From IMG/VR virus record IMGVR_UViG_3300025671_000540, positions 1 through 23,478 of that record: 23,478 bases of DNA; one strand, given 5' to 3'. Below the pieces are notes generated by a model. That model did not search any database. It was not told the DNA's origin and was given only the letters and a program-made list of their open reading frames with translations. The position numbers were made by a program, and so were the translations under genes. Shown here in pieces: positions 269 through 23,478 of the stretch. Source of the stretch: a virus. Position 1 is the first letter of the stretch. Each line of letters begins with the position of its first letter.

Positions 269-3200
269 TTAGCGGAAACGCTCGGCAGATTTAGCACCTG
301 CACTTACCGCAGGTAGCATGAACCGATTACCAGGCATAGCTGGTGCTTGGCGGGTAATGCGATTGGCGGGTTGGCGGGAGAAGTTTCCTGCCGGTAAAAA
401 GTTTACTTCTTGAGATCCTCGGGAATTAGTTCTTCCTCCTCGGGGGTTGGTTCGTAATTGCGATCCCCCCAACTCAGGCCGATATAATTCCTGCGAGTTA
501 TTGGCAGATTCATTTGTTCCATCTGCCCGACTATTGGATCTTTCTGTAACCCACTCAGGCTCTGTAATTCCGCCTGCGACTTCAAGGATTTGTTTTCTTG
601 TTTCATTTAAGGTTAGTTCTCCATTCTCGTATTTTTCCCACAAATTGTCAATTTTACCCTTATTGGATTTTGTTTTCCATTTAGCCTCATACAAGCCTCT
701 GATCGCTTCCCATGTTATACTTTGCATTTCTCTAGGTAAGATTCCCCGTGCTTCTGCGGCTTTTCTGTATGCGTCTGCATAGATGCCATACGTACCACTA
801 ATTCCTTTTACGGAACTATTCTTAATACTTCGTTTTGCACCTTTAGGCTTGGACCCGAAATTATTTGCTACTTCTAAATCTGCACCAGCTAATGGTCGAA
901 GTAAAGCCGCGGCAATCGCATGAGTATCTATTGTTACAGAAAACTTATCTGCATTTGGAAGAAGGATATTATTGTAAAAGTTTCTAATTTTATGAGCGTT
1001 ACCTAAAGCAGTTGAAATGCTTTCCTTAGATGGATTTCTTAAAACTTTAACAGCCTTAGAAATTTCAGTCATACTGCCCCAAGCTACTTTTTTATTTGCC
1101 CCATCTAGTGATTTCGCAAGTCCGATAAAATCCCCTTCAGGTGAAACAACCTGGTACTCTCTTGGATTATAAACTTCATCGTATGAACGAATAAAAGCGG
1201 CTTGTTCATAGTCACTCTTTAAATCGTTCAAAGTTTTACCAACCATAGCTTCTGCGATCTCGGTTGCTTTCTTTTTACCAATACCTTTTTCAAAAAGCTG
1301 AATATATTTTTTAGCCATAGCTTTATCGAACGCAAAGCCTGATTGATCTTTATAGATATCAAGCATTCTGCGGGCTAAGTCTACATTCATAAACCAGTCT
1401 TTTTGTGGAGATAAGGAAGCTAAAGCGGCGGCAATCGATTGTTTATCATTACCATATTGTTGATTCCACTTCTCGGTAATATTTCTAGCACCATCATACC
1501 AAAGTTTAGATCGATCTCTAACTTCAGGACGAACCTGGTCGTGCAGGTATAAAAGATTATCTACAACATGGTCCACAAAGCTATCTATAATCTTTTTGGG
1601 TACCTTAGAATTTCTCTTAATACCTGGATATTCTTGGAGTGCTAAAGCGTGAGATTCAAGCATTGTGACATCATCAGCAATCGATGCTGTATTGATTATT
1701 AAATCTTCTGTGATTGGATTCTCGGTTGCATTCTTAGCGGTAGGATTCCTTGTACTAATCTTGAAGTCTAAATCAGCGGCCTCGGCTTGCTTCCCCTTCC
1801 CCGCACCAGCCTCGGAGGCCGGCATGAAGAGTTTCTGCCCGCTTTCTAATTCGTTACGAATCTGATTAGCTGTTCGATCTGAGTCCCTAGACTTGGTAAT
1901 ATCCTGTGGGTTTACATACTCCCGTCTTTGACTAAACTCCTGCCCATTCTTATCGAAACCATAGAATGGATTCTGCTCGGGATTATCTGCTACTCCTGAT
2001 AGACGAGAACCATCCTTTAAATAGACTGGGCTTTTAAATGTTCTAAGTTTTGCCGATTTATCCCTTGAAGATTTTGGTCTAAAGAAACTACCAGGTGAAC
2101 CTTCTTGGATTTCGGTTGGCATAAGCAACTTCTTAGCCCTATCGACATTTACATTGGAGTTTCGGTTGCCTGACCTAGTTACATCAAATATCCGATCCAA
2201 GCGGAAAGTCTTAGTGGCTGGTCCGAATGGTTGCCGCTTGGATGGGTTAAACATATCCATCCCTTTTAATTTACTTATTTCAGAAAGTATCGGATTTAAA
2301 TTAATATGCTCGGTATCGATTGCCCCGTGCAATGCATTAAGGAAGTTCTTCTTGCGGATTGCTCGGGAAGGATCGTCATCTAATCCAAGTTGGCCATCCA
2401 TGCCATTGGCGGTATTAACTCGGTACTGTCGAAATGCTTCCCATACTTCTGTGTCGTTATCAAATAGTTGGTTATATTCGTCTCTGTATTTACCTGGTAA
2501 TCTCTTACCACCTTTTAAGAATTTAAGGTTCTTTTCGAGTTGGGGAACATCGTGTAAAAGGGCGAGAATATTTCCATCCTTTGTAAGTTTAAATCCGTAT
2601 GGCATTTCTTGCCTTAAAGCAAATGGTACAGCTTTTGGCTTTCTACCGGTTGATGCGGCAAAGTATCCAATTAAAAAGCCTGCTCGCTCACCATCGCCCT
2701 CCCTTAATGATCGACTAATTTCTCGAAGTGTTTGAATTTGACGAGGATGCCAGGGACCTTGTGCCAACTCATCAATCATTTCAGGAGTTAGGTTAGTAAT
2801 ATCCCTAGTCGATTTCTTCCCGTCCTTATGGGTGATGATATCAACTCCGTTTTTCTCAAATACTTTGATGGCATGATCGCCTTGCGCCCTGTTCTGTTTT
2901 TCCAACTCTTTTGCGGTATACCTCTTTGGAGTGCCAGTTGGACCAGTTTCTAATTCCGATCCTTTTCCATCTGCGGTTGGCCTCCATTTGAATATTCCAC
3001 CTGTGTCGAGTTTTGCTTTAATGGCTGGGTCGTTTTGATCTTTTATTGAGAACGAGTTTTCAAAATCACCTTGATCGATTGGTCGCTTTGCTTTTCGAGA
3101 GTCTATGCTTAATTCTTTATCCACCCGATTTGTACCTGGTGTGATTACCTCATCGCCTTGGATTTCCCTCTGTCTCATCGCCCGAGTGTCTTTGTAATAC

Positions 3201-6200
3201 TGGTCGATTAGTTTAGTAATTTCAGGAATCCTTCTTTGTTTACCTTCAAAGAATCCACCTTCGATAAATTTACCATCCGCTTTCATTGGGAAGTTCATTT
3301 TTAATAGAAAGTCCCGAATGAATGGAGTGCCTAGCATCGCCTCAGAGGATGCACGGATAATCTTTTGTGCGACTGTATTACCTTTGTCTTTTTTTCCGCT
3401 TAATAGATAGTCTTTAACTTGATCAGCAAATAGTTCAGATGCAAATATTTGATTACCCTCCGGTCCTTGATATCGGTCTGCATTTGCAGGATCAATTGAT
3501 TTATCGGCAGATAACTTTTGTAAATATATATCCCGTAAATCTAAGAACTCTTGATTAGGTTCGATTTTACCTTCGTCATTATATTTACCATATACCCCAC
3601 CTTCTTTAGTCACAGGATCGCCGAAGAATATTTTATTAACCATCGGGGTAAGTCCGTGAATTTCTATCTTATGCCCAATTTCATGGGCAAGCACTCCTTC
3701 GATTAACCCCGCCCCTGTGTCCCTCCGATATTCAATTACAGAAGTTTGAAGGTCGGGATTAAAACTAAAGTTGCCCTGCCCTTCTGTACCAGGTTGGAAT
3801 ATTACATCGGGATGGGATAGGCTATAACCAGCCAAGGCCATGCGGATATGCAAAGGTAATGCATCAAAATCTGCCTGTTCACTCTTATTAAGGTGTTCAC
3901 GATAGTAATGAACATCGCCCATCTTTTGCTGAAACAAATCGCCTTTATTTTTAAAGGTCTGATACATCCCAGCGCCCGCTCCAATTGATGTGAATGGTGC
4001 AGATACTAATGCACCTGCCAATGCACCTTCTACTTGTCCGCCTGAGCCGACATAGCCAAAGGTGGCAGGTAAAGTTGATCCCGCAGTTACCACAGTTCCG
4101 AATCGTCCAAGTGCCTCAATGCCTCGACCAAGTGTGGGTGTGCGATCTAAAAATTGTGCTACCTTTCGAGTCGGGTTGGACAGCATTTTATTGGTGTCAC
4201 TTAAACCTGGTCGAAATGGTGCGCCGGTTGGAAATTCATCTGTTACAGATGTTGCGATCCCTCGACCTATTGGTCTAATCTTATCAATCGTCTTTTCTAA
4301 AATGGTCTCGCCACTAGATGTTCGAGTGAGTGCTTGAAAGCGGTCAGCATTAGCTCCGATCAATCCTTCATCTGCCGATGGCAACAATGCTAACCTATTA
4401 AAAAACGGACTATTCTCACCCCTCGCATAGATCAACTCTGGTCCGATCACTCGACTATCCCTGATTGCGGCATCGGAGAATTGTGCCAGTTTGGGTAAGA
4501 ATTTTAATGCGAATGCACCTCCACCAATTTTAAGGAGAGAGTCGGATATTCCGCTACCGCCTTCTTGGTTACTTAAAATAGCACCACCACCTAATCCTAA
4601 TATACCTGTAGGGTATAAAACTTTATTAGTAAATTGACGATACTGTTTCCTTGCCGCTTGTTCGGTTATCTCCTCACCCGCTTCGGTGGCTGATCTCATA
4701 ATATAAGATATTGCTACATTTTCAGGCATTGTAGAAAGTATCTTTGCACCTTTTAAGACTGATGGTGCTAATGCTCCAACTGCCGCACCTTCAGGCCCTG
4801 CTAAAGATGCCCCAATGGTTGCACCGGCTATTTCAGGAGTCAGTCTAGCACCCATTGCGATTCCTTTGCGTACAAGCCCAATCTTTCCGTTGGGCTTCAT
4901 GGCGTTGTAGACCATATTCATGGACAACTTACCAGCATCAGTTGCAGTATCTAAATTTTTAGCGGCTACCTTCAGTAGTTCATCGGGTGATGATTGGGCG
5001 GCCATTCGCAAGAATAAAGAATTACGGGCATATTTATCTACAATTTTTTGCTTCTCTAAGAGTTCAGCATTTAATTCTACCAATCTACTTCCAACCCTTT
5101 GATGCATGGCAGATTGCTCGGGTAATTTATCTAGATATTTTATTGTAGATGCTTTTGCTTTATTTAAAATATTTACCTCTTTTAAGGTTTTAGAAATACG
5201 ACCTGATAGTGCGATTCGTTGGGGAGCCGTAACTCCTTTTGCGAATGTACCGCCAGCCATATTCATTGGATCTCCGACCACTTCCGTAAGGAAAGATAAT
5301 CCAGTATCGGGCTGTACCAATCCTGAGCGGATATCCTGTTGAAGATCAGAATCTAAATTTATATCCTCCTCATCGATTAAGATTTCGTTTAAGTCTTCTG
5401 CCTCAACAATTGGGGTTAGTCCTCCAACTAATCCCGCGACCATTGCCTTTGCAGACTCTTGTGGGTTCTCCAATACAAAAGCCGCTAATTCAGCTGAATT
5501 TTCGTAGCGATGATTTATTCCATCCAACTCAATGGCTGAATTTACATAATCTAACACATCAGCTTCATCGGTTTCATCCAACAGAAGTTTATCTTTTAAA
5601 AACTTTCCGCCTTTAAATAAAAACTCTCCACCACTAGCGGCTCGGGCATACCCCTCCCCCACTCCAGTAACCATCGAATCCTGTGCGTAATCCATTGCGG
5701 CAGTTTTAACTCGACCACGAGCGTCCTTATTCTTCGAGTAGAATGCCATACCTGTCCGCTTGAGAGCTTCAGTAATTGGATCGAAGTCTAATTTATCCTC
5801 GGTATTATCAAGAAAGCCAAAAAGGTATTTTCCCGCCTCCCTAAATTGATCTACATTTTCAGTTTTTTCATAGGGTACTGCCTTGTCAGGAAGTCTAAGT
5901 AATTTATCGTATGGACCCGAGATTCCTATACCTAAATCAGGAGACAATGTCCCGCCTGTTAGAGTTTTAGATATTTGTAAACCCCGCAGTACAGCTTTCC
6001 CTCCTAAGTCGAGTAAACCATCAATTATGCCAGGTTGTTCCGGTTGTCCTTCTACAGGTTTAGTCTCACCGAAGAATCCATTTTTATAGGCAGAAATCTT
6101 CTCCTCATCAGTCAACTGAGACAGCCCTAAAGGTCGAACTTGTTGCTTAACTACCTCCCAAAAATCCCGCTCAGTTGGTGGGGGTAAATCGTCTGGCCCT

Positions 6201-6259
6201 TCAAGTACTACGCTTCCAATTTGTGGAATACGAGGGTGGGAGATTTCGTACTCAGCCAT
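269..6259 (-). CDS. Giant internal virion/ejection-type protein with metallopeptidase-like domain (1996 aa)
   Basis: This is the largest gene and the last of the structural run; its size and position after two helical virion proteins fit a podovirus ejection protein entering the cell with the DNA. Seen: several Gly/Ala-rich hydrophobic segments (about residues 270-287, 475-510, 548-565, 720-766), resembling glycine zippers. A zincin-like centre follows, with H859-E860-x-x-H863 in LAHEIGHKIE and a plausible third ligand E942 in ASELFADQ. A charged middle region comes next. A folded-looking C-terminal domain spans about 1535-1850, with LASLSPQKDWF near 1614 and IDTHAIAAAL at 1777-1786; it recalls a phage family I remember as DUF7178 (unverified). 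Short motifs LLMPTE (M1380), LFMPASE (M1479), FLPAG (about 1955) and FMLPA (M1981) recur in the last third. No lysozyme or transglycosylase signature was seen. The role is inferred; the HExxH call is direct. The gene starts 2 nt after the upstream stop. Confidence 0.85.
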   Translation of the reverse strand: MAEYEISHPRIPQIGSVVLEGPDDLPPPTERDFWEVVKQQVRPLGLSQLTDEEKISAYKNGFFGETKPVEGQPEQPGIIDGLLDLGGKAVLRGLQISKTLTGGTLSPDLGIGISGPYDKLLRLPDKAVPYEKTENVDQFREAGKYLFGFLDNTEDKLDFDPITEALKRTGMAFYSKNKDARGRVKTAAMDYAQDSMVTGVGEGYARAASGGEFLFKGGKFLKDKLLLDETDEADVLDYVNSAIELDGINHRYENSAELAAFVLENPQESAKAMVAGLVGGLTPIVEAEDLNEILIDEEDINLDSDLQQDIRSGLVQPDTGLSFLTEVVGDPMNMAGGTFAKGVTAPQRIALSGRISKTLKEVNILNKAKASTIKYLDKLPEQSAMHQRVGSRLVELNAELLEKQKIVDKYARNSLFLRMAAQSSPDELLKVAAKNLDTATDAGKLSMNMVYNAMKPNGKIGLVRKGIAMGARLTPEIAGATIGASLAGPEGAAVGALAPSVLKGAKILSTMPENVAISYIMRSATEAGEEITEQAARKQYRQFTNKVLYPTGILGLGGGAILSNQEGGSGISDSLLKIGGGAFALKFLPKLAQFSDAAIRDSRVIGPELIYARGENSPFFNRLALLPSADEGLIGANADRFQALTRTSSGETILEKTIDKIRPIGRGIATSVTDEFPTGAPFRPGLSDTNKMLSNPTRKVAQFLDRTPTLGRGIEALGRFGTVVTAGSTLPATFGYVGSGGQVEGALAGALVSAPFTSIGAGAGMYQTFKNKGDLFQQKMGDVHYYREHLNKSEQADFDALPLHIRMALAGYSLSHPDVIFQPGTEGQGNFSFNPDLQTSVIEYRRDTGAGLIEGVLAHEIGHKIEIHGLTPMVNKIFFGDPVTKEGGVYGKYNDEGKIEPNQEFLDLRDIYLQKLSADKSIDPANADRYQGPEGNQIFASELFADQVKDYLLSGKKDKGNTVAQKIIRASSEAMLGTPFIRDFLLKMNFPMKADGKFIEGGFFEGKQRRIPEITKLIDQYYKDTRAMRQREIQGDEVITPGTNRVDKELSIDSRKAKRPIDQGDFENSFSIKDQNDPAIKAKLDTGGIFKWRPTADGKGSELETGPTGTPKRYTAKELEKQNRAQGDHAIKVFEKNGVDIITHKDGKKSTRDITNLTPEMIDELAQGPWHPRQIQTLREISRSLREGDGERAGFLIGYFAASTGRKPKAVPFALRQEMPYGFKLTKDGNILALLHDVPQLEKNLKFLKGGKRLPGKYRDEYNQLFDNDTEVWEAFRQYRVNTANGMDGQLGLDDDPSRAIRKKNFLNALHGAIDTEHINLNPILSEISKLKGMDMFNPSKRQPFGPATKTFRLDRIFDVTRSGNRNSNVNVDRAKKLLMPTEIQEGSPGSFFRPKSSRDKSAKLRTFKSPVYLKDGSRLSGVADNPEQNPFYGFDKNGQEFSQRREYVNPQDITKSRDSDRTANQIRNELESGQKLFMPASEAGAGKGKQAEAADLDFKISTRNPTAKNATENPITEDLIINTASIADDVTMLESHALALQEYPGIKRNSKVPKKIIDSFVDHVVDNLLYLHDQVRPEVRDRSKLWYDGARNITEKWNQQYGNDKQSIAAALASLSPQKDWFMNVDLARRMLDIYKDQSGFAFDKAMAKKYIQLFEKGIGKKKATEIAEAMVGKTLNDLKSDYEQAAFIRSYDEVYNPREYQVVSPEGDFIGLAKSLDGANKKVAWGSMTEISKAVKVLRNPSKESISTALGNAHKIRNFYNNILLPNADKFSVTIDTHAIAAALLRPLAGADLEVANNFGSKPKGAKRSIKNSSVKGISGTYGIYADAYRKAAEARGILPREMQSITWEAIRGLYEAKWKTKSNKGKIDNLWEKYENGELTLNETRKQILEVAGGITEPEWVTERSNSRADGTNESANNSQELYRPELGGSQLRTNPRGGRTNSRGSQEVNFLPAGNFSRQPANRITRQAPAMPGNRFMLPAVSAGAKSAERFR

Positions 6260-9954: not shown

Positions 9955-9960
9955 CTCCTT
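9955..9960 (-). promoter_or_regulatory. Ribosome binding site of the collar fibre, overlapping the upstream stop
   Basis: The minus strand reads TAAGGAG, where TAA (9961-9959) ends the nozzle gene and AAGGAG (9960-9955) is a strong Shine-Dalgarno sequence 9 nt before the ATG at 9945. The overlap suggests linked translation. Confidence 0.75.
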
Positions 9961-12400
9961 ATGAAATTGATGTGGTGGATCGGTTACTAATTCTAGCGTC
10001 TATCTTGGTAGCCCGAAGGTATGGTCGGCCTATGGATGGCCGGAAATCTGCCTGTATGCCAAACCCCTTCTTGTTTACCCGAAGGCGTAGGGAGGCCTCC
10101 TCCGAGTCGGGCAATGAGTTACCTAATAGGCTGGAGATTGCTGTGCTTGTGCTTACCGAGTCGGGGTCTTCGGTTATAAATTGGATGTTACCGTCAGTAG
10201 AAAAGCCGGTATTTGATTTTACATGGAACTCTGCGCGGCTGTATGTTTTACGGTCCATACTTTCGGCATCGTATTGGCGGGTGGTTAGCTGACTAATTAT
10301 AGGGATGGTGGAGGGACTTGCCTGACCCGCTGTAATCGAAACCACATCGCCTCCCTCATTGCCATCTATCTTATGCACCCCGCCCTCCTCGGTTGTCAGA
10401 TACAAAGCATTCTGCGCACCTTCGCGGGCAACAAGTAAATCGCGAATGGCAAAGTCTACAGAGTTTACAGAGTCAATGCTTTCAAAACCGCCGTTGATAA
10501 AATTATAAACGATTATGGTGTTGAGCTTAGTCGCATTGCCCGCACCAGGTGCTGAGTCTAATGGGACAGCCAGCCAATAGCGGGAGTTGAAATATACGCC
10601 TGTGGAAAGATGGGCATAGTTCTGATTTATCCGATCTATAAATGGTTGAATAGTTTCGGATATCGGTGTGCCTGTTCCTCGTAAATTGTATTCATCGAGG
10701 AACTCCACGCTGTAAATGCCTTGGTCTGATAAGAATAGAATCTTGTTCGCCACCTGGACGATTGACTTCCTTGCGGATGCTCCGATCTCTGTGGTTACCA
10801 CATTGGTGGACACATCGGAAAGAGATCCACTCACGCCTGTCATTAGGTGGATGGATTTTCGGTTAAATACAACTATGGAATCGTTGGTAAAACCTGTAAG
10901 CCCCACGGTATAATCGCTCTGCCCGGCACTCGCTCGGAACTGATTTCCGATTCTATCATATGTATCGCTATCAAAGATATCGCTGGCAATGAGTTCATCC
11001 CGAACATTTCGAGTGCTGGGTGATACATCCGAAGTGTACCAATACGGCACCCAAAGTCTACGCTGGTGAAACTCTCCCCACGGGGCAGATGGCATATGGA
11101 TAAATCCTTTACCGATTGCCAACTGTTTGGAGACCGTGAGGGATGCACCAAGTGATACTTTCTCTACCCCTAAATTAAAAGTAAATTGGTCTACTGTTGG
11201 GGTGGAAGTAATGATTGCTTTTTGATTTTTGAATAAATCGTATGGGGATGCCCCATCCCTAATGGTTACCTCGTTTCCTTGCTCCAGCCCATGATTAATC
11301 ACATCCATAGTTACCACGCCGTTTAGTGCAGTAGCGGTGGTGTCTGTAAGATAAGCGGGCGCTGTATAAGTGCCACGAGCTACCCTGGTAAAATCCTCAA
11401 AGTATTCAGCCGATGCACCCGATACATTAAAGGTAGCTGTCTGAGATCCTGCCATCTCCACGGTGAATTGAGTGGCAGTTGGAGCGGTTACTATCTGATA
11501 ACAGTTATTGGGATTGATGGTCCAATTACCCAGGTTTGTCAGCGTGACAAAGTCACCCACTACCCGACCATGATTTGCTGATGTATTTACCGTTATTACT
11601 TGACCTGATTGAGAGGCGGAGGATATGCCGATTTCATTAAGTGATGGGCTGGCCGACAAAGCGGTTTTCCTTGGGCGGAAGATAAACATTTTGTCAAATC
11701 CCTGAGACATTCCCACAGGAGCATCCACAGTCTCCCCTCCACCCTCATATCGGCACTTAAAAAGGGCTGTGTCTTTTAGTCGGACAATCACACAAACATT
11801 ATTTGTCGCGGTAAATATGTAGTCATCCGAGTTCGATGAAGCATCGCTGTAAACCGCTGATCCATAAACCTCATTTACCCCGTCATCGTTTAGGGTAAAA
11901 TTCAGGGTGGTGGTAATCGAGTTGCCAACAGAACATACTGAGGTGTTGCCTACCGATGAGTCCTGCACGGTAAAGGTTGCATCACTCCCGGCATTGGCAA
12001 AGGTGATGGTCTTAGTATTAAAGTTTACGGTAGATAAAGTGTGTGTGCCGTCTACTGAGGGGTCCACATCATCCACAGTTATATTATCACCAGGAATGAA
12101 GGACAGGCTGGGAGTGTCGTCTAGTACTAAACTGACAACGCCCGATGAACGGGAGGCCGATAAAATTACATAGGGTATGCGGATCGCATCTTCTCCCGAT
12201 GTGATTGATCCAAACAGAGTCGATAATCCTTTGCGGGGTTGCCAAGTACCGTCATCGTTCATCCGACCATTCTTTGACAGGGCAACCTCACCAGGCTTCA
12301 ACTGGTTGGGGCGCAGACGCGCATTCATCCGCAGAAAGAAGGTGTCCCCTTCTGTTACGAATGGATCGTCTAGCTGGCCGTAACTGCGATATCTCGACAT
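9959..12400 (-). CDS. Tail nozzle/hub protein, P22 gp10 or T7 gp12-like (813 aa)
   Basis: The N-terminus has the opening seen in podovirus hub and nozzle proteins: RPNQLKPGEVALSKNGRM followed by GTWQPRKGLSTL. Residues about 430-680 carry motifs expected of the beta-propeller body (RRLWVPYW, DSIVVFNRKSIHLM, ILFLSDQGIYSVEF). Length is close to T7 gp12 (about 790 aa) and longer than P22 gp10. The extra length is partly explained by three beta-rich repeats at about 81-146, 261-323 and 356-412, each with a [HP]G-D/N-x-[VI]-T core. It probably forms the tail tip below the adaptor ring and holds the fibres. It lies just after the holin-like gene and just before the collar fibre. Family membership is inferred from sequence reading; a role as a minor tail structural protein is very likely. 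Confidence 0.8.
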   Translation of the reverse strand: MSRYRSYGQLDDPFVTEGDTFFLRMNARLRPNQLKPGEVALSKNGRMNDDGTWQPRKGLSTLFGSITSGEDAIRIPYVILSASRSSGVVSLVLDDTPSLSFIPGDNITVDDVDPSVDGTHTLSTVNFNTKTITFANAGSDATFTVQDSSVGNTSVCSVGNSITTTLNFTLNDDGVNEVYGSAVYSDASSNSDDYIFTATNNVCVIVRLKDTALFKCRYEGGGETVDAPVGMSQGFDKMFIFRPRKTALSASPSLNEIGISSASQSGQVITVNTSANHGRVVGDFVTLTNLGNWTINPNNCYQIVTAPTATQFTVEMAGSQTATFNVSGASAEYFEDFTRVARGTYTAPAYLTDTTATALNGVVTMDVINHGLEQGNEVTIRDGASPYDLFKNQKAIITSTPTVDQFTFNLGVEKVSLGASLTVSKQLAIGKGFIHMPSAPWGEFHQRRLWVPYWYTSDVSPSTRNVRDELIASDIFDSDTYDRIGNQFRASAGQSDYTVGLTGFTNDSIVVFNRKSIHLMTGVSGSLSDVSTNVVTTEIGASARKSIVQVANKILFLSDQGIYSVEFLDEYNLRGTGTPISETIQPFIDRINQNYAHLSTGVYFNSRYWLAVPLDSAPGAGNATKLNTIIVYNFINGGFESIDSVNSVDFAIRDLLVAREGAQNALYLTTEEGGVHKIDGNEGGDVVSITAGQASPSTIPIISQLTTRQYDAESMDRKTYSRAEFHVKSNTGFSTDGNIQFITEDPDSVSTSTAISSLLGNSLPDSEEASLRLRVNKKGFGIQADFRPSIGRPYLRATKIDARISNRSTTSIS

Positions 12401-12404
12401 CTAT

Positions 12405-12551
12405 CTATTTCTTTCGGATCTCTTGGAAAATCTTAATCCCCATAAAGATGATGGTCGCCACGCCCGCCACGATGCCCACAATCTCATTGACTGTGCCTAG
12501 CCCAAAGGTGGCGGCGGTTCCCGCCATTCCTGCCATGCTCACCCTGTCCAT
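12405..12551 (-). CDS. Small holin-like membrane protein (48 aa)
   Basis: The frame runs from ATG at 12551-12549 to TAG at 12407-12405. The start overlaps the stop of the 38-aa gene as TAATG. The product has a small-residue N-terminus (MAGMAGTAATFG), one strong hydrophobic segment at about 22-42 (IVGIVAGVATIIFMGIKIF) and a basic end, QEIRKK. This single-segment, basic-tail form is common among small phage holins. It lies 4 nt before the nozzle gene and after the lipoprotein/38-aa pair. A membrane location is well supported; holin function is inferred from size, topology and neighbours. An inner-membrane accessory protein is the alternative. Confidence 0.65.
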   Translation of the reverse strand: MDRVSMAGMAGTAATFGLGTVNEIVGIVAGVATIIFMGIKIFQEIRKK

Positions 12552-12667
12552 TAGCCGCACGAATCTAGCAGCATCAAAACTGCGATTATTGCCAAAAATA
12601 TGGTAATCATTTTGCCTCGTTTCGATAGGGCGTGAAACTTATCTTTTAGAATTAGGAAGTTTTTCAT
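12551..12667 (-). CDS. Tiny membrane protein in the candidate lysis cassette (38 aa)
   Basis: ATG at 12667-12665 overlaps the upstream lipoprotein stop as ATGA, and the TAA at 12553-12551 overlaps the next start as TAATG. The product starts MKNFLILKDKFHALSKRGK, a basic amphipathic stretch, followed by a hydrophobic segment at about 20-34 and an end LLDSCG with Cys37 next to the C-terminus. An internal ATG at 12610 has GAGG five nt before it and would give a 19-aa form with only the hydrophobic part. Coupling on both sides and conserved-looking topology argue that it is translated. It could be a holin partner or antiholin. LDSC is a poor lipobox, so lipidation is unlikely. Confidence 0.6.
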   Translation of the reverse strand: MKNFLILKDKFHALSKRGKMITIFLAIIAVLMLLDSCG

Positions 12668-13089
12668 TTAATTGGAAATGGTGCGCGTGTTTGGTTTTTT
12701 ACCGCTTCTTTCTGCGAGCATTTTTTGGCGACAAAAATAGGAATGGCGAGGTATGCCCCCAGGGCGATTGCCGCCCATAGTAGCCATTGTTTTATTTTGT
12801 TGGTGAATGACTCAAAGCCCGATTGGTGTTCTGCCATGCCCTGGGCAACAAGTGCGGATACATCGCCGTGGGTAAGAGCTTCGATCCGCTCCTCTGCTTC
12901 CACAAGCTTGTCGGCATTTTTTAATGCCTCCCCCGCTAGTACCCCTGCCCCAGCCCCTAGTGCGGCAGTTCCTGGGCCACCCAAGCTACCCGCACCACCG
13001 CCTACTATGCCGCCAAGTGTTGGGTAGGTTGAGCGAAGCGAACAGCCAGCGAGTAGGAAGGTGATCGCGAATGTGAGGGCATGAGGCAT
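12664..13089 (-). CDS. Lipoprotein with C-terminal membrane segment, candidate unimolecular spanin (141 aa)
   Basis: The N-terminus is a short lipoprotein signal, MPHALTFAITFLLAGCS, with lipobox L13-A-G-C16 and Ser at +2, which favours outer-membrane sorting. A Gly/Ala-rich stretch at about 26-55 follows, then a charged helical region at 56-100 (NADKLVEAEERIEAL). A membrane segment lies at about 102-120 (WLLWAAIALGAYLAIPIFV), followed by a basic tail starting AKK. An outer-membrane lipid anchor plus a C-terminal inner-membrane span is the layout of unimolecular spanins such as T1 gp11 (about 131 aa), which join the two membranes in the last step of lysis. The neighbours are two tiny membrane proteins. 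The signal lacks the usual Lys/Arg start, and the Gly-rich stretch is unlike T1 gp11. A glycine-zipper lipoprotein with another role, such as superinfection exclusion, is the main alternative. Confidence 0.72.
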   Translation of the reverse strand: MPHALTFAITFLLAGCSLRSTYPTLGGIVGGGAGSLGGPGTAALGAGAGVLAGEALKNADKLVEAEERIEALTHGDVSALVAQGMAEHQSGFESFTNKIKQWLLWAAIALGAYLAIPIFVAKKCSQKEAVKNQTRAPFPIK

Positions 13090-13091
13090 AA

Positions 13092-13352
13092 TTAAATTAC
13101 AGAGTCAGGTGACCACTCAGGATCAAACTCTACCATGTCACTAACATTAAACTCGTTGATTGTGACATAGTTTCCGGATGTGGTAATTGGGAATATATAC
13201 TTGCCGAAATCATTGTGATCCGGATTACTGACTTGTAAAACTTCTGCGTACCGCTCATTTCCGATTCCATCAGGCAATCCGAATAGCGTATTCATAGCAT
13301 CGTTACTAGCGTCCCACTCTTCTTGTGTGCTGTATAAAATAAATTTCTTCAT
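13092..13352 (-). CDS. Small fibre-module protein, function unknown (86 aa)
   Basis: The protein starts MKKFILYSTQEEWDASNDAM and is acidic, with no signal peptide or membrane segment. The opening beta strand followed by a short helix rich in Glu, Asp and Ala resembles small proteins often found after fibre genes in phages. It lies 5 nt after the LamG-like adhesin and 2 nt before the lipoprotein. It may be a fibre chaperone or a small virion subunit; no motif decides this. The leader has no clear Shine-Dalgarno sequence. Confidence 0.6.
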   Translation of the reverse strand: MKKFILYSTQEEWDASNDAMNTLFGLPDGIGNERYAEVLQVSNPDHNDFGKYIFPITTSGNYVTINEFNVSDMVEFDPEWSPDSVI

Positions 13353-13357
13353 AGTAA

Positions 13358-14251
13358 TTAGGATGCAGGGTCTGCTACATAGTTAGGTTTTCTGGAGGTA
13401 GTAGCTTGGGACGCATCGTTGCCGTTTCCGCTGTAGTCTTTAACGGTTCCAATATCCTGACCAGCACTAGCTGCACTACCGTTACTATTAGTATCCCCGT
13501 AATAATAACCCATTCTATAGTAAGCTTCGGGAGATAAACTTAGACCCATTATGTCAGCCCCATTGTATATGTCTGTTATATTTTGAGTAGTTAACGCACT
13601 CCCAAAGAAAGCAACTTGGTCTAATTTACCTGTGTAAGGATATAAATAAGTAGATGTGTTACCTATCAAATAATTCGTTGGTGAATTTGCGGATTGCTTG
13701 CCATTATTAGCCCACCCGTTTGCTGTGGTAGCGTCAGCATTATACACAGGTGTGGTATTACCGTCTTTATAAATTTTAATATTCGTATCTGTACCGCTAT
13801 TATCTAAAACAATAACTATGTGATGCCATGCATTATCGTAAATGGTTCCAACATCAATACTACCATTAACATTACTTCCTGTTGATGTACCGTATCTCAA
13901 ATAAAACGGAGAACTATCACCTGGAGTTGTCAATACAGACAATCGACCCCAAGAAGAACCGGCATCGTCCCTGCAAATATCCTGATAAGTTGCCCCAGTT
14001 CCGCTAGACTTCATCCAAAATGAGATTGTAAAATCATTGCCTCCGGATGTACTTTGATATGTGGTATCCAATCGGTCGTTACCATCAAACTCTAAACTAA
14101 GAGTGTTGGCAGTCGTACTATCCCATGAGTACCCTCTCCAATTCGTGCCATCCCAAATGATGATATTCTTGGTGTCGGTTTCAAATAATACATCCCCGTC
14201 ATTAGGAGAAGGGGGGCGTGATGTTGATGTGCAAGTGCTGAATGTACTCAT
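13358..14251 (-). CDS. LamG/concanavalin-like adhesin, fibre component (297 aa)
   Basis: Residues about 46-235 read as a LamG-like jelly roll: SLEFDGNDRL, FTISFWMKSSG, the WHHIVIVLDNSG strand, KIYKDGN and YTGKLDQVAFFGSAL. Such domains bind glycans or other ligands and often sit at fibre tips. The first 40 residues carry a short attachment-like segment, PPSPNDGDVLF then IIIWDGTNWRGY, also found at the end of the neighbouring 207-aa protein. The C-terminal 60 residues are Tyr, Asn and Gly-rich, with GTVKDYSGNGNDA typical of such repeats. A cell-surface binding role is inferred. The gene lies 3 nt after the previous stop and lacks a strong ribosome site. Confidence 0.8.
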   Translation of the reverse strand: MSTFSTCTSTSRPPSPNDGDVLFETDTKNIIIWDGTNWRGYSWDSTTANTLSLEFDGNDRLDTTYQSTSGGNDFTISFWMKSSGTGATYQDICRDDAGSSWGRLSVLTTPGDSSPFYLRYGTSTGSNVNGSIDVGTIYDNAWHHIVIVLDNSGTDTNIKIYKDGNTTPVYNADATTANGWANNGKQSANSPTNYLIGNTSTYLYPYTGKLDQVAFFGSALTTQNITDIYNGADIMGLSLSPEAYYRMGYYYGDTNSNGSAASAGQDIGTVKDYSGNGNDASQATTSRKPNYVADPAS

Positions 14252-21653: not shown

Positions 21654-23478
21654 ACACTTGTGCCTGGTACATTACCTGGTGCAGTCCCTAGTTGTCCGAT
21701 TTTAGCGTTCTGCTGTTGAGTCTGCTGGAACTCTAACTGAGAAGCATATGTCTGTAGTCTCTTCGCAAAGTTCTCGTCCGATTGCAGTCTCTCCTGAACA
21801 TCGGTAGCCGGTATCGCTTCAGAGCCTTGGATGTACGATTCCAATACCTGTAACCTGAGTTGAGCATTCGCCCCCTTCTCGGGTGCATTAACAACCTGAC
21901 CCGATGCAATCTTTGCAATGTCGTTCGATGTTTCAATAATCTCTTTCGTTGTGGCCTCCTGAGTAGGCATGATTAATTGCGATGCTAGATTAGGATCGAT
22001 TGCTTCCAGTACCTTGCGGAGATAAATATCGAATCTGCTTATTCCCTGCCTATCGTAAGTCGCCATCAGCTTGCCCACGGTATCGAGCTTCTCGATCACT
22101 TTGCTTTCGTCTGCATTCATCGAGTTCCAGCTAATATTGAAATCATACAACTCCGCAGTTTCATCCAAAATTAACTGCGCACCCTGCTCATTATTGGTTA
22201 CCCGAAACCAAATCATCGGGCCGCTGTAAGTACGATCCAAGCACCATACACGCTTGAGGATCTCCTTCCATCCACTAAGCCAGCAATTTACCAGGTGCTG
22301 TTTGAGCGTATTAGCCTCCACCGCATCGTCAGGACCAGTCGGCCGACCGGTGATGCGGTTGGCCAGTTGCCGAAGTTGCATCTCCACCTCTGTGGATGCT
22401 GGTGAGTAGCGAGGGATTTCCATGAATCCTACCTCTCCACGCCTCCTTACTGCCAAGGTAGCACCTGGACCTATACGCTCGGGGCGGCGACCAATTTGAT
22501 GCTCAATGGGAGGCAGGGTACTCATCGATGCACGGTCACGGCGGCTGTCCATCTCTGTCTTTACCGCAATCTGATAACTCTTGAGCAACTCAGGGTATCC
22601 GCGAGAGTCCAATAAACGATGGTTTAAATGCTCTCTCGTGATACATACAAATGGATATCTGCCCTCATCGTACCCAATAGGCTCGTGGAACCCAGCCTCG
22701 TCCATCTCCTCGGTCCAGCAGGTCTTGGTAACCACAGGCACATCATCTTCATCGAGTTCCTTACGATAGGTAGTAATTACCTTAATCAAACCTTCGTAGT
22801 GCTGACTCCCATAATTGTTGCCATAGTCATACGACATCATGCTGTCGGAGTACCGCTCCTCAGAGTAGAAATCTTTAGCCTTTTCGATAGCTTCGTCTAT
22901 CCATTTATCATCCCATCCCTCATTGACCTTCTGCTTTAAGGCTTCAGGCGTGTAATAGTGCAAACAATGAATTGACCTGGCACTTTCCAAATCGATCACA
23001 TTGCTATCCACAATCAATTCACGCCCAAGCTCATACGCTTTAACTGCCGGGCGATTAACAACCATCTTTTCAGTAGGTATTTCTGTCTCACCTGTTTCCC
23101 GAAGTTCCTTGAGCATCTTCTTGACCCGTCTCTTCTTTAGCTTTGGGAACATTGGATAAAACATCTCCTCGACCCCTTCCTTCATGTCGGGATCTTCAAT
23201 AGCCAAAGCCAATTCGGGTGACTGCTCCTCTATCTGCGCCAAACTTATAGGCTCAAACTTCCTAGTCTTCTCCTGCTTCCAGTATGTGCCAAAGAAAGTA
23301 AGGCCGTTCTGTAGTAAATAATTAGCACCAATCGATGCTTCCCTCATTAGCTCATCCATCGTACCCATCCGCCAACGCAAAAACTCACTCACCAGCTTGG
23401 CCGATGCTATGTCGCCCGATTCAACCGGGGCGGCGACCAGGTTGGCCTTAGTCAAAGACTGCACCAAGGTAGCCACAT
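21650..23478 (-). CDS. Portal protein, N-terminus outside the window (at least 608 aa)
   Basis: The frame is open to the right edge. The first codon visible in frame is GTG at 23476, unlikely to be the start because portals of this type have roughly 80-100 residues before the motif VAAPVESGDIASAKLVSEFL. The visible part contains ITREHLNHRLLDSRGYPELL and SMSTLPPIEHQIGRRPERIG, GPDDAVEANTLKQHLVNC, then a long helical region and a Gln-rich end (SQLEFQQTQQQNAKIGQLG), consistent with a P22-like podovirus portal with clip, stem, wing and a helical barrel. It forms the twelve-subunit ring through which DNA enters and leaves. Terminase is expected further right. The stop overlaps the start of the 93-aa basic protein. 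Confidence 0.82.
   Translation of the reverse strand, partial: VATLVQSLTKANLVAAPVESGDIASAKLVSEFLRWRMGTMDELMREASIGANYLLQNGLTFFGTYWKQEKTRKFEPISLAQIEEQSPELALAIEDPDMKEGVEEMFYPMFPKLKKRRVKKMLKELRETGETEIPTEKMVVNRPAVKAYELGRELIVDSNVIDLESARSIHCLHYYTPEALKQKVNEGWDDKWIDEAIEKAKDFYSEERYSDSMMSYDYGNNYGSQHYEGLIKVITTYRKELDEDDVPVVTKTCWTEEMDEAGFHEPIGYDEGRYPFVCITREHLNHRLLDSRGYPELLKSYQIAVKTEMDSRRDRASMSTLPPIEHQIGRRPERIGPGATLAVRRRGEVGFMEIPRYSPASTEVEMQLRQLANRITGRPTGPDDAVEANTLKQHLVNCWLSGWKEILKRVWCLDRTYSGPMIWFRVTNNEQGAQLILDETAELYDFNISWNSMNADESKVIEKLDTVGKLMATYDRQGISRFDIYLRKVLEAIDPNLASQLIMPTQEATTKEIIETSNDIAKIASGQVVNAPEKGANAQLRLQVLESYIQGSEAIPATDVQERLQSDENFAKRLQTYASQLEFQQTQQQNAKIGQLGTAPGNVPGTSV

Follow-up and report, generated by a model that had tools for sequence, protein, structure and literature searches.

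Small membrane-protein genes that lie among the tail genes of a phage, far from any recognised endolysin, raise the question of whether they serve host lysis. Three such genes are consecutive in the stretch of DNA analysed here (the window), which is 23,478 bases long and spans the whole of a fragmentary IMG/VR record. They are located on the minus strand and encode a lipoprotein of 141 aa (12664-13089), a 38-aa peptide, p38 (12551-12667), and a 48-aa holin-like protein, p48 (12405-12551), which an alternative GTG start would lengthen to 51 aa. The stop of the lipoprotein gene overlaps the start of p38 in an ATGA (12664-12667), and the stop of p38 overlaps the start of p48 in a TAATG (12549-12553). 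The frames and junctions given in a preliminary description of this DNA are thus borne out, as is its account of a lipoprotein with a C-terminal membrane segment and two membrane peptides; hydropathy predicts one transmembrane (TM) segment in each product.

The same description proposed a lysis cassette, and this is the best-supported reading. With a probability of roughly 0.62, the three genes supply the membrane proteins of a host-lysis cassette in a marine podophage lineage, namely a unimolecular spanin (u-spanin), a small TM peptide and a holin. The reading is drawn from the swapping of modules among sister phages, the p48 that these share, and the u-spanin architecture of the lipoprotein. 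No support was found for a specific role of p38 or for the presence of an endolysin, which a classical cassette needs.

The genomic setting can be followed beyond the window. Over the stretches compared, the window is 99.7-99.98% identical to G001, a record of 38,121 bases whose ends overlap each other by about 100 nt (window positions 23320-23424 are present at both); G001 is therefore essentially this phage's complete genome. The only TM proteins predicted in G001 that do not lie in overlaps with larger genes are the trio and two frames of 42 and 47 aa, which by elimination also points to the trio as the lysis genes. The cassette had been placed between fibre and nozzle genes. This is correct on one side, where the gene of an 813-aa nozzle/stabilisation-type tail protein (9959-12400, minus strand) follows directly downstream, outside the cassette. 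On the upstream side, an 86-aa gene (13092-13352) intervenes before the lectin-fold fibre gene (13358-14251). In many other loci with the trio (L016, L014, L024, L027 and others), the nozzle homologue closest to that of the window lies 0.5-2.3 kb further downstream of p48; the arrangement of the tail genes near the cassette therefore varies.

The two small frames might be taken for chance, and their conservation in relatives was accordingly checked. An initial set of 58 trio loci has the three genes in succession, with conserved overlaps. Profile searches over 350-odd loci, retaining those where the lipoprotein gene has at least 350 nt of downstream flank, placed p38 and p48 directly behind it in all 113 distinct IMG/VR loci. 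The p38 gene occurs without a lipoprotein match in two cases only, both cut by a contig end; elsewhere it invariably accompanies the u-spanin-type gene, directly downstream of it (113/113). The overlap between the two is -4 in 73 of 99 distinct loci and -14 or -11 in the remainder; the ATGA form is consistent with translational coupling. Against eight relatives, with pS up to 0.95, pN/pS is 0.11-0.31 for the lipoprotein, 0.15-0.36 for p38 and 0.10-0.25 for p48. Given this co-occurrence and the low pN/pS, all three frames are real genes under purifying selection. The preliminary description would have counted missing conservation of the small frames in related phages against its proposal; conserved as they are, the frames leave the proposal standing. 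Seven positions of p38 are invariant over 38 distinct sequences, and twelve of p48 over 41. One profile search of genome contigs with the lipoprotein alignment found no homologues in cellular genomes, and neither the lipoprotein nor p38 has a match in 50,697 phage records.

The lipoprotein has the architecture of a unimolecular spanin. Such proteins are defined by an outer-membrane lipoprotein signal and a C-terminal TM segment in one polypeptide, and all 58 known examples lack periplasmic cysteines (PMC6139136). The protein of the window begins with a signal peptide and lipobox (LLAG-C16, with Ser17 at position +2), continues through a glycine-rich stretch and a conserved part predicted to be helical, HGDVSALVAQGMAEHQ, and crosses the membrane at 103-121 by hydropathy (KD 2.23); a basic tail ends in a conserved TRxPF motif. 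The pair C16-S17 is near-invariant across the family alignment. A strict lipobox is present in 81 of 99 distinct uncut frames; 78 of these have Ser at +2 and 3 have Asn, and all 81 are free of periplasmic cysteines. The other 18 comprise 17 with a looser box, for example TAGC, that still contains Cys-Ser, and the frame of L251, from which the N-terminus is missing. The net charge of the C-terminal tail is +4 to +7. Ser or Asn at +2 is compatible with sorting to the outer membrane, provided that the host follows the +2 rule of E. coli. Variants that seemed to lack a lipobox (L094, L103, L109 and L114) were rejected as such, since a lipobox appears once an in-frame start further upstream is taken, or the frame is truncated at a contig end.

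Because it has the properties that define u-spanins, the lipoprotein is read as one and, by analogy, probably works like one. The closest known counterpart, gp11 of phage T1 (Kongari et al. 2018, PMC6139136), is likewise a single lipoprotein of 130-150 aa with Ser after the lipobox Cys, a C-terminal TM segment, no periplasmic cysteine and an adjoining holin-like gene. There are also clear differences. Sequence similarity ends at the lipobox, the only part aligned by hhalign (1.4%), and so lies below the level that delimits the T1 gp11 family (at least 40% similarity over at least 40% of the periplasmic part). The T1 type is mainly beta, whereas the window protein is glycine-rich and, by prediction, helical: its AlphaFold model shows a helical periplasmic part and a long C-terminal helix (77-133), at a low confidence (pLDDT 56) that makes it too poor for a fold search. 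In addition, its gene is the first of the set rather than the last, and the cassette has no endolysin. Searches of PHROG, Pfam, PDB-sequence and phage records gave no meaningful match. Judged by sequence, the lipoprotein would represent a new family of u-spanin type.

The preliminary description called the 48-aa product holin-like, and this gained support from two sides. Fourteen of 41 p48 members match the holin family phrog_920 at E<=0.1 (best E 2.2e-4; 0.0095 for the window protein). This is the family of the T7 holin gp17.5, which itself scores 6e-30 against phrog_920. The second line comes from the marine autographivirus MedDCM-OCT-S45-C18, in which a weak tblastn match of p48 falls on a 53-aa gene that follows the fibre gene and is itself followed by a 76-aa gene, the terminase large subunit and an amidase; it thus occupies the position of the holin gene 17.5 in T7. 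In one hhalign comparison, the p48 alignment matched an alignment of 26 relatives of this 53-aa gene with 97.9% probability (E 3.6e-13), against 2.4% for a control comparison of p38 with p48. A direct alignment of p48 with the single T7 gp17.5 sequence was not significant (1.7%).

As a T7-type class II holin, p48 would resemble gp17.5 in being a small late membrane protein, with profile matches in part of its family and a homologous marine family at the gp17.5 position. However, it has 48 aa rather than 67 and one strong TM segment (24-42), its N-terminal hydrophobic stretch being only weak, while the gp17.5 type has two TM segments in an N-in/C-in arrangement. Its gene is also located between the spanin-like gene and the nozzle gene, instead of between tail fibre and terminase genes.

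The peptide p38 has a basic N-terminus and one TM segment (20-38), with a predicted N-in/C-out topology, and a family search for it returned nothing above noise. Its most probable role is that of a small regulator, holin-like or antiholin-like. It might modulate the action of p48 or act as a helper of the spanin.

Evidence on function also comes from relatives that were collected by their nozzle protein rather than by the lipoprotein. Several of these sister phages keep p48 and have neither lipoprotein nor p38. In their place stands a module of one of three different proteins (74, 102 or 118 aa), each with an N-terminal TM segment and a helical or coiled-coil remainder, together with a 154-aa membrane protein. 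One type of the N-terminal TM protein matches the 'Rz-like spanin' family phrog_739 (E 0.008). The two modules never occur together: none of the 31 loci that carry the 154-aa gene has the lipoprotein-p38 pair, and the two also exclude each other in seven complete or near-complete genomes. The identical p48 sequence is found with either. A tree of the nozzle protein (64 rows), which anchors the comparison, shows 13 module changes, at least 12 of them forced by well-supported branches; recombination between the nozzle gene and the module adds to these counts, and the number is one of exchanges, not of inventions. Near-identical nozzle proteins accompany different modules in the pairs L013/L087, L016/L092, L005/L079 and L046/L110. 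That the modules have replaced each other repeatedly at a single site, next to a holin-like gene that stays constant, argues that their function is the same. Exchange with a module resembling an i-spanin and an o-spanin further supports the naming of the lipoprotein as a u-spanin.

The 154-aa gene would encode the o-spanin half of the alternative module in its +1 frame. This whole frame is open in 15 of 16 distinct sister sequences, and for 137 codons in the sixteenth. Such openness was reached in none of 2,000 codon-usage simulations for any sequence, and by within-gene shuffling of synonymous codons at 0-2.6%; the 16 sequences are related, and the tests on them are not independent. The product starts at an ATG at codon 46 of the 154-aa gene, present in most sequences, and its features are those of Rz1-type o-spanins: a basic N-terminus, a hydrophobic core, a lipobox-like sequence followed by Cys, and a tail rich in Ser and Pro. 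Reduced synonymous variation in the 154-aa frame was not found, which counts against overprinting. On balance, the frame is likely to encode an overprinted Rz1-like lipoprotein. The arrangement recalls T7 18.5/18.7 and lambda Rz/Rz1, where the o-spanin is embedded, in that an N-terminal TM coiled-coil protein is combined with a lipoprotein in the +1 frame of another gene. It differs in that the overlapped gene is that of a separate 154-aa membrane protein and not the i-spanin gene, and the window itself carries the one-gene form. Frames of this kind with a lipobox lie upstream of p48 at L112:9386-9862, L117:6869-7288, L088, L074 and 12 other sister loci.

More distant relatives are found in Verrucomicrobia phage P8625 and in phage C75C1. 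A p48-like protein, gp27, is encoded in P8625 beside a membrane protein, gp28, that ends in GFYFGSS like the 154-aa protein of the sisters; the counterparts in C75C1 are CDS41 and CDS46. Unlike the loci above, these have neither a lipoprotein-p38 pair nor an overprinted frame, the 154-aa homologues having many stops in the +1 frame. The products, which resemble a p48-type holin and the GFYFGSS-ending protein, are annotated as hypothetical only (L138:11980-12533 for P8625, L121:18232-19624 for C75C1). None of five endolysin and transglycosylase families was found in the two genomes, and a literature search on phage C75C1 and on the lysis genes of P8625 found nothing.

Module exchange could also be accommodated if p48 were the only lysis gene, a holin, and the lipoprotein and p38 formed an envelope module for superinfection exclusion or receptor blocking, with the alternative module doing that same job. 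It is p48 that is constant and has homologues outside the lineage, phage-encoded lipoproteins are known as exclusion factors, and frequent swapping also suits exclusion or arms-race genes. However, exclusion lipoproteins usually lack a second, C-terminal TM segment, the alternative module combines i-spanin topology with an overprinted Rz1-like lipoprotein frame, and the operon is late, lies among tail genes and is coupled to the holin. This makes the explanation unlikely, though it is the most serious rival to a spanin function.

A role of the trio in the virion or in tail assembly, for instance as ejection or tail-associated membrane proteins, is suggested by its position among fibre, nozzle and internal virion genes, and by an ORF of at least 100 aa, mostly the nozzle gene, within 60 nt downstream in all 109 testable trio loci. 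Yet virion components do not typically carry a lipoprotein signal or consist of single-TM micropeptides, the genes are exchanged wholesale for unrelated proteins while the virion genes stay, and homologous holin-like genes occupy the lysis position in T7-like phages; such a role is quite improbable.

The reading of the trio as lysis genes leaves the question of the endolysin. The preliminary statement that the cassette lies far from any recognised endolysin holds well beyond the window. No endolysin was found in G001, of whose proteins nearly all were searched with Pfam and most with PHROGs, and a six-frame search for five endolysin and transglycosylase Pfam families gave none in G001 or the six other complete or near-complete relatives; the amidase and transglycosylase of T7 and the amidase of MedDCM S45-C18 were detected in the same search. 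With no known endolysin family in these seven genomes, the cassette is incomplete as recognised when compared with a classical holin-endolysin-spanin cassette. The missing endolysin is likely to be an unrecognised enzyme encoded elsewhere in the genome. An endolysin-free lysis strategy is possible but improbable, because, among other reasons, the sister phages that do without p38 have no recognised endolysin either. That p38 acts in such phages as a single-gene-lysis-type peptide stopping murein synthesis, leaving p48 and the u-spanin to finish lysis, can be set aside as very improbable: the failure to find an endolysin beside positive controls and the conservation under selection of a basic-plus-TM micropeptide would fit, but sisters G002 and G005 lack both p38 and a recognised endolysin, so that this is not a general answer, unrecognised endolysin families are common, and no motif links p38 to known murein inhibitors. 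It is a long shot that the whole lineage lyses without an endolysin of known type, by a kit of micropeptide, holin and spanin or by a wholly new class of murein hydrolase, the spanin part switching between a one-protein form and a two-component, overprinted one.

If the trio does serve lysis, the genes would be expressed late from the tail operon, with translation coupled through their overlaps. In this scheme, p48 would accumulate in the inner membrane and trigger its permeabilisation like a T7-type class II holin, and a murein-degrading activity of some further gene would weaken the peptidoglycan. The lipoprotein, its lipidated N-terminus sorted to the outer membrane and its C-terminal TM segment remaining in the inner membrane, could then disrupt or fuse the outer membrane. 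We infer all of these activities, and any role of p38, from the genes, their conservation, coupling and topology, the homology of p48 and the exchange of modules.

Lysis genes of marine phages often go unannotated. The trio supplies an apparently new u-spanin-type family, with no match to T1 gp11, PHROGs or PDB sequences, and a conserved micropeptide easily missed by gene finders. It also offers a natural experiment: beside one and the same holin, a one-gene and a two-gene spanin-like system have taken each other's place at least twelve times. Should the proposed lysis functions be true, the interchangeability of u-spanins and two-component spanins is directly testable in one genetic background. 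At the same time, the complete genomes of the lineage expose the problem of the missing endolysin.

Two places where an endolysin might be hidden were considered and rejected. A murein hydrolase inside the internal virion proteins of 1,600-2,900 aa was sought with Pfam on 11 homologues, which gave none; a PDB sequence search was empty. The domains found in these homologues were polyvalent-type ART, nuclease-like and acetyltransferase domains, with one sub-threshold match to Peptidase_M48 (E 0.046). A 135-aa protein, the single core protein outside the virion set that had no assignment, was examined as a cryptic endolysin, and its AlphaFold model (pLDDT 73) gave a best Foldseek hit against PDB of E 0.23, which is not credible.

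Several further features of these genomes were observed. A 42-aa single-TM peptide is encoded outside the cassette, just before the dNMP kinase gene (L123:12117-12245; G001 31117-31245). The 135-aa core protein (L123:4289-4696; G001 23289-23696), which has the signature GKKKVRGDSNYYRxLR and no family or fold match, is encoded after the internal virion gene in each of the seven genomes. The giant internal virion protein itself, of about 1,570-2,860 aa (window 269-6259; L061, L065, L086, L097, L112 and L124), has an invariant HExxH, and its homologues carry varying polyvalent-type domains (ART-PolyVal, GNAT, PBECR2, DUF3990, ASCH and DUF7178).
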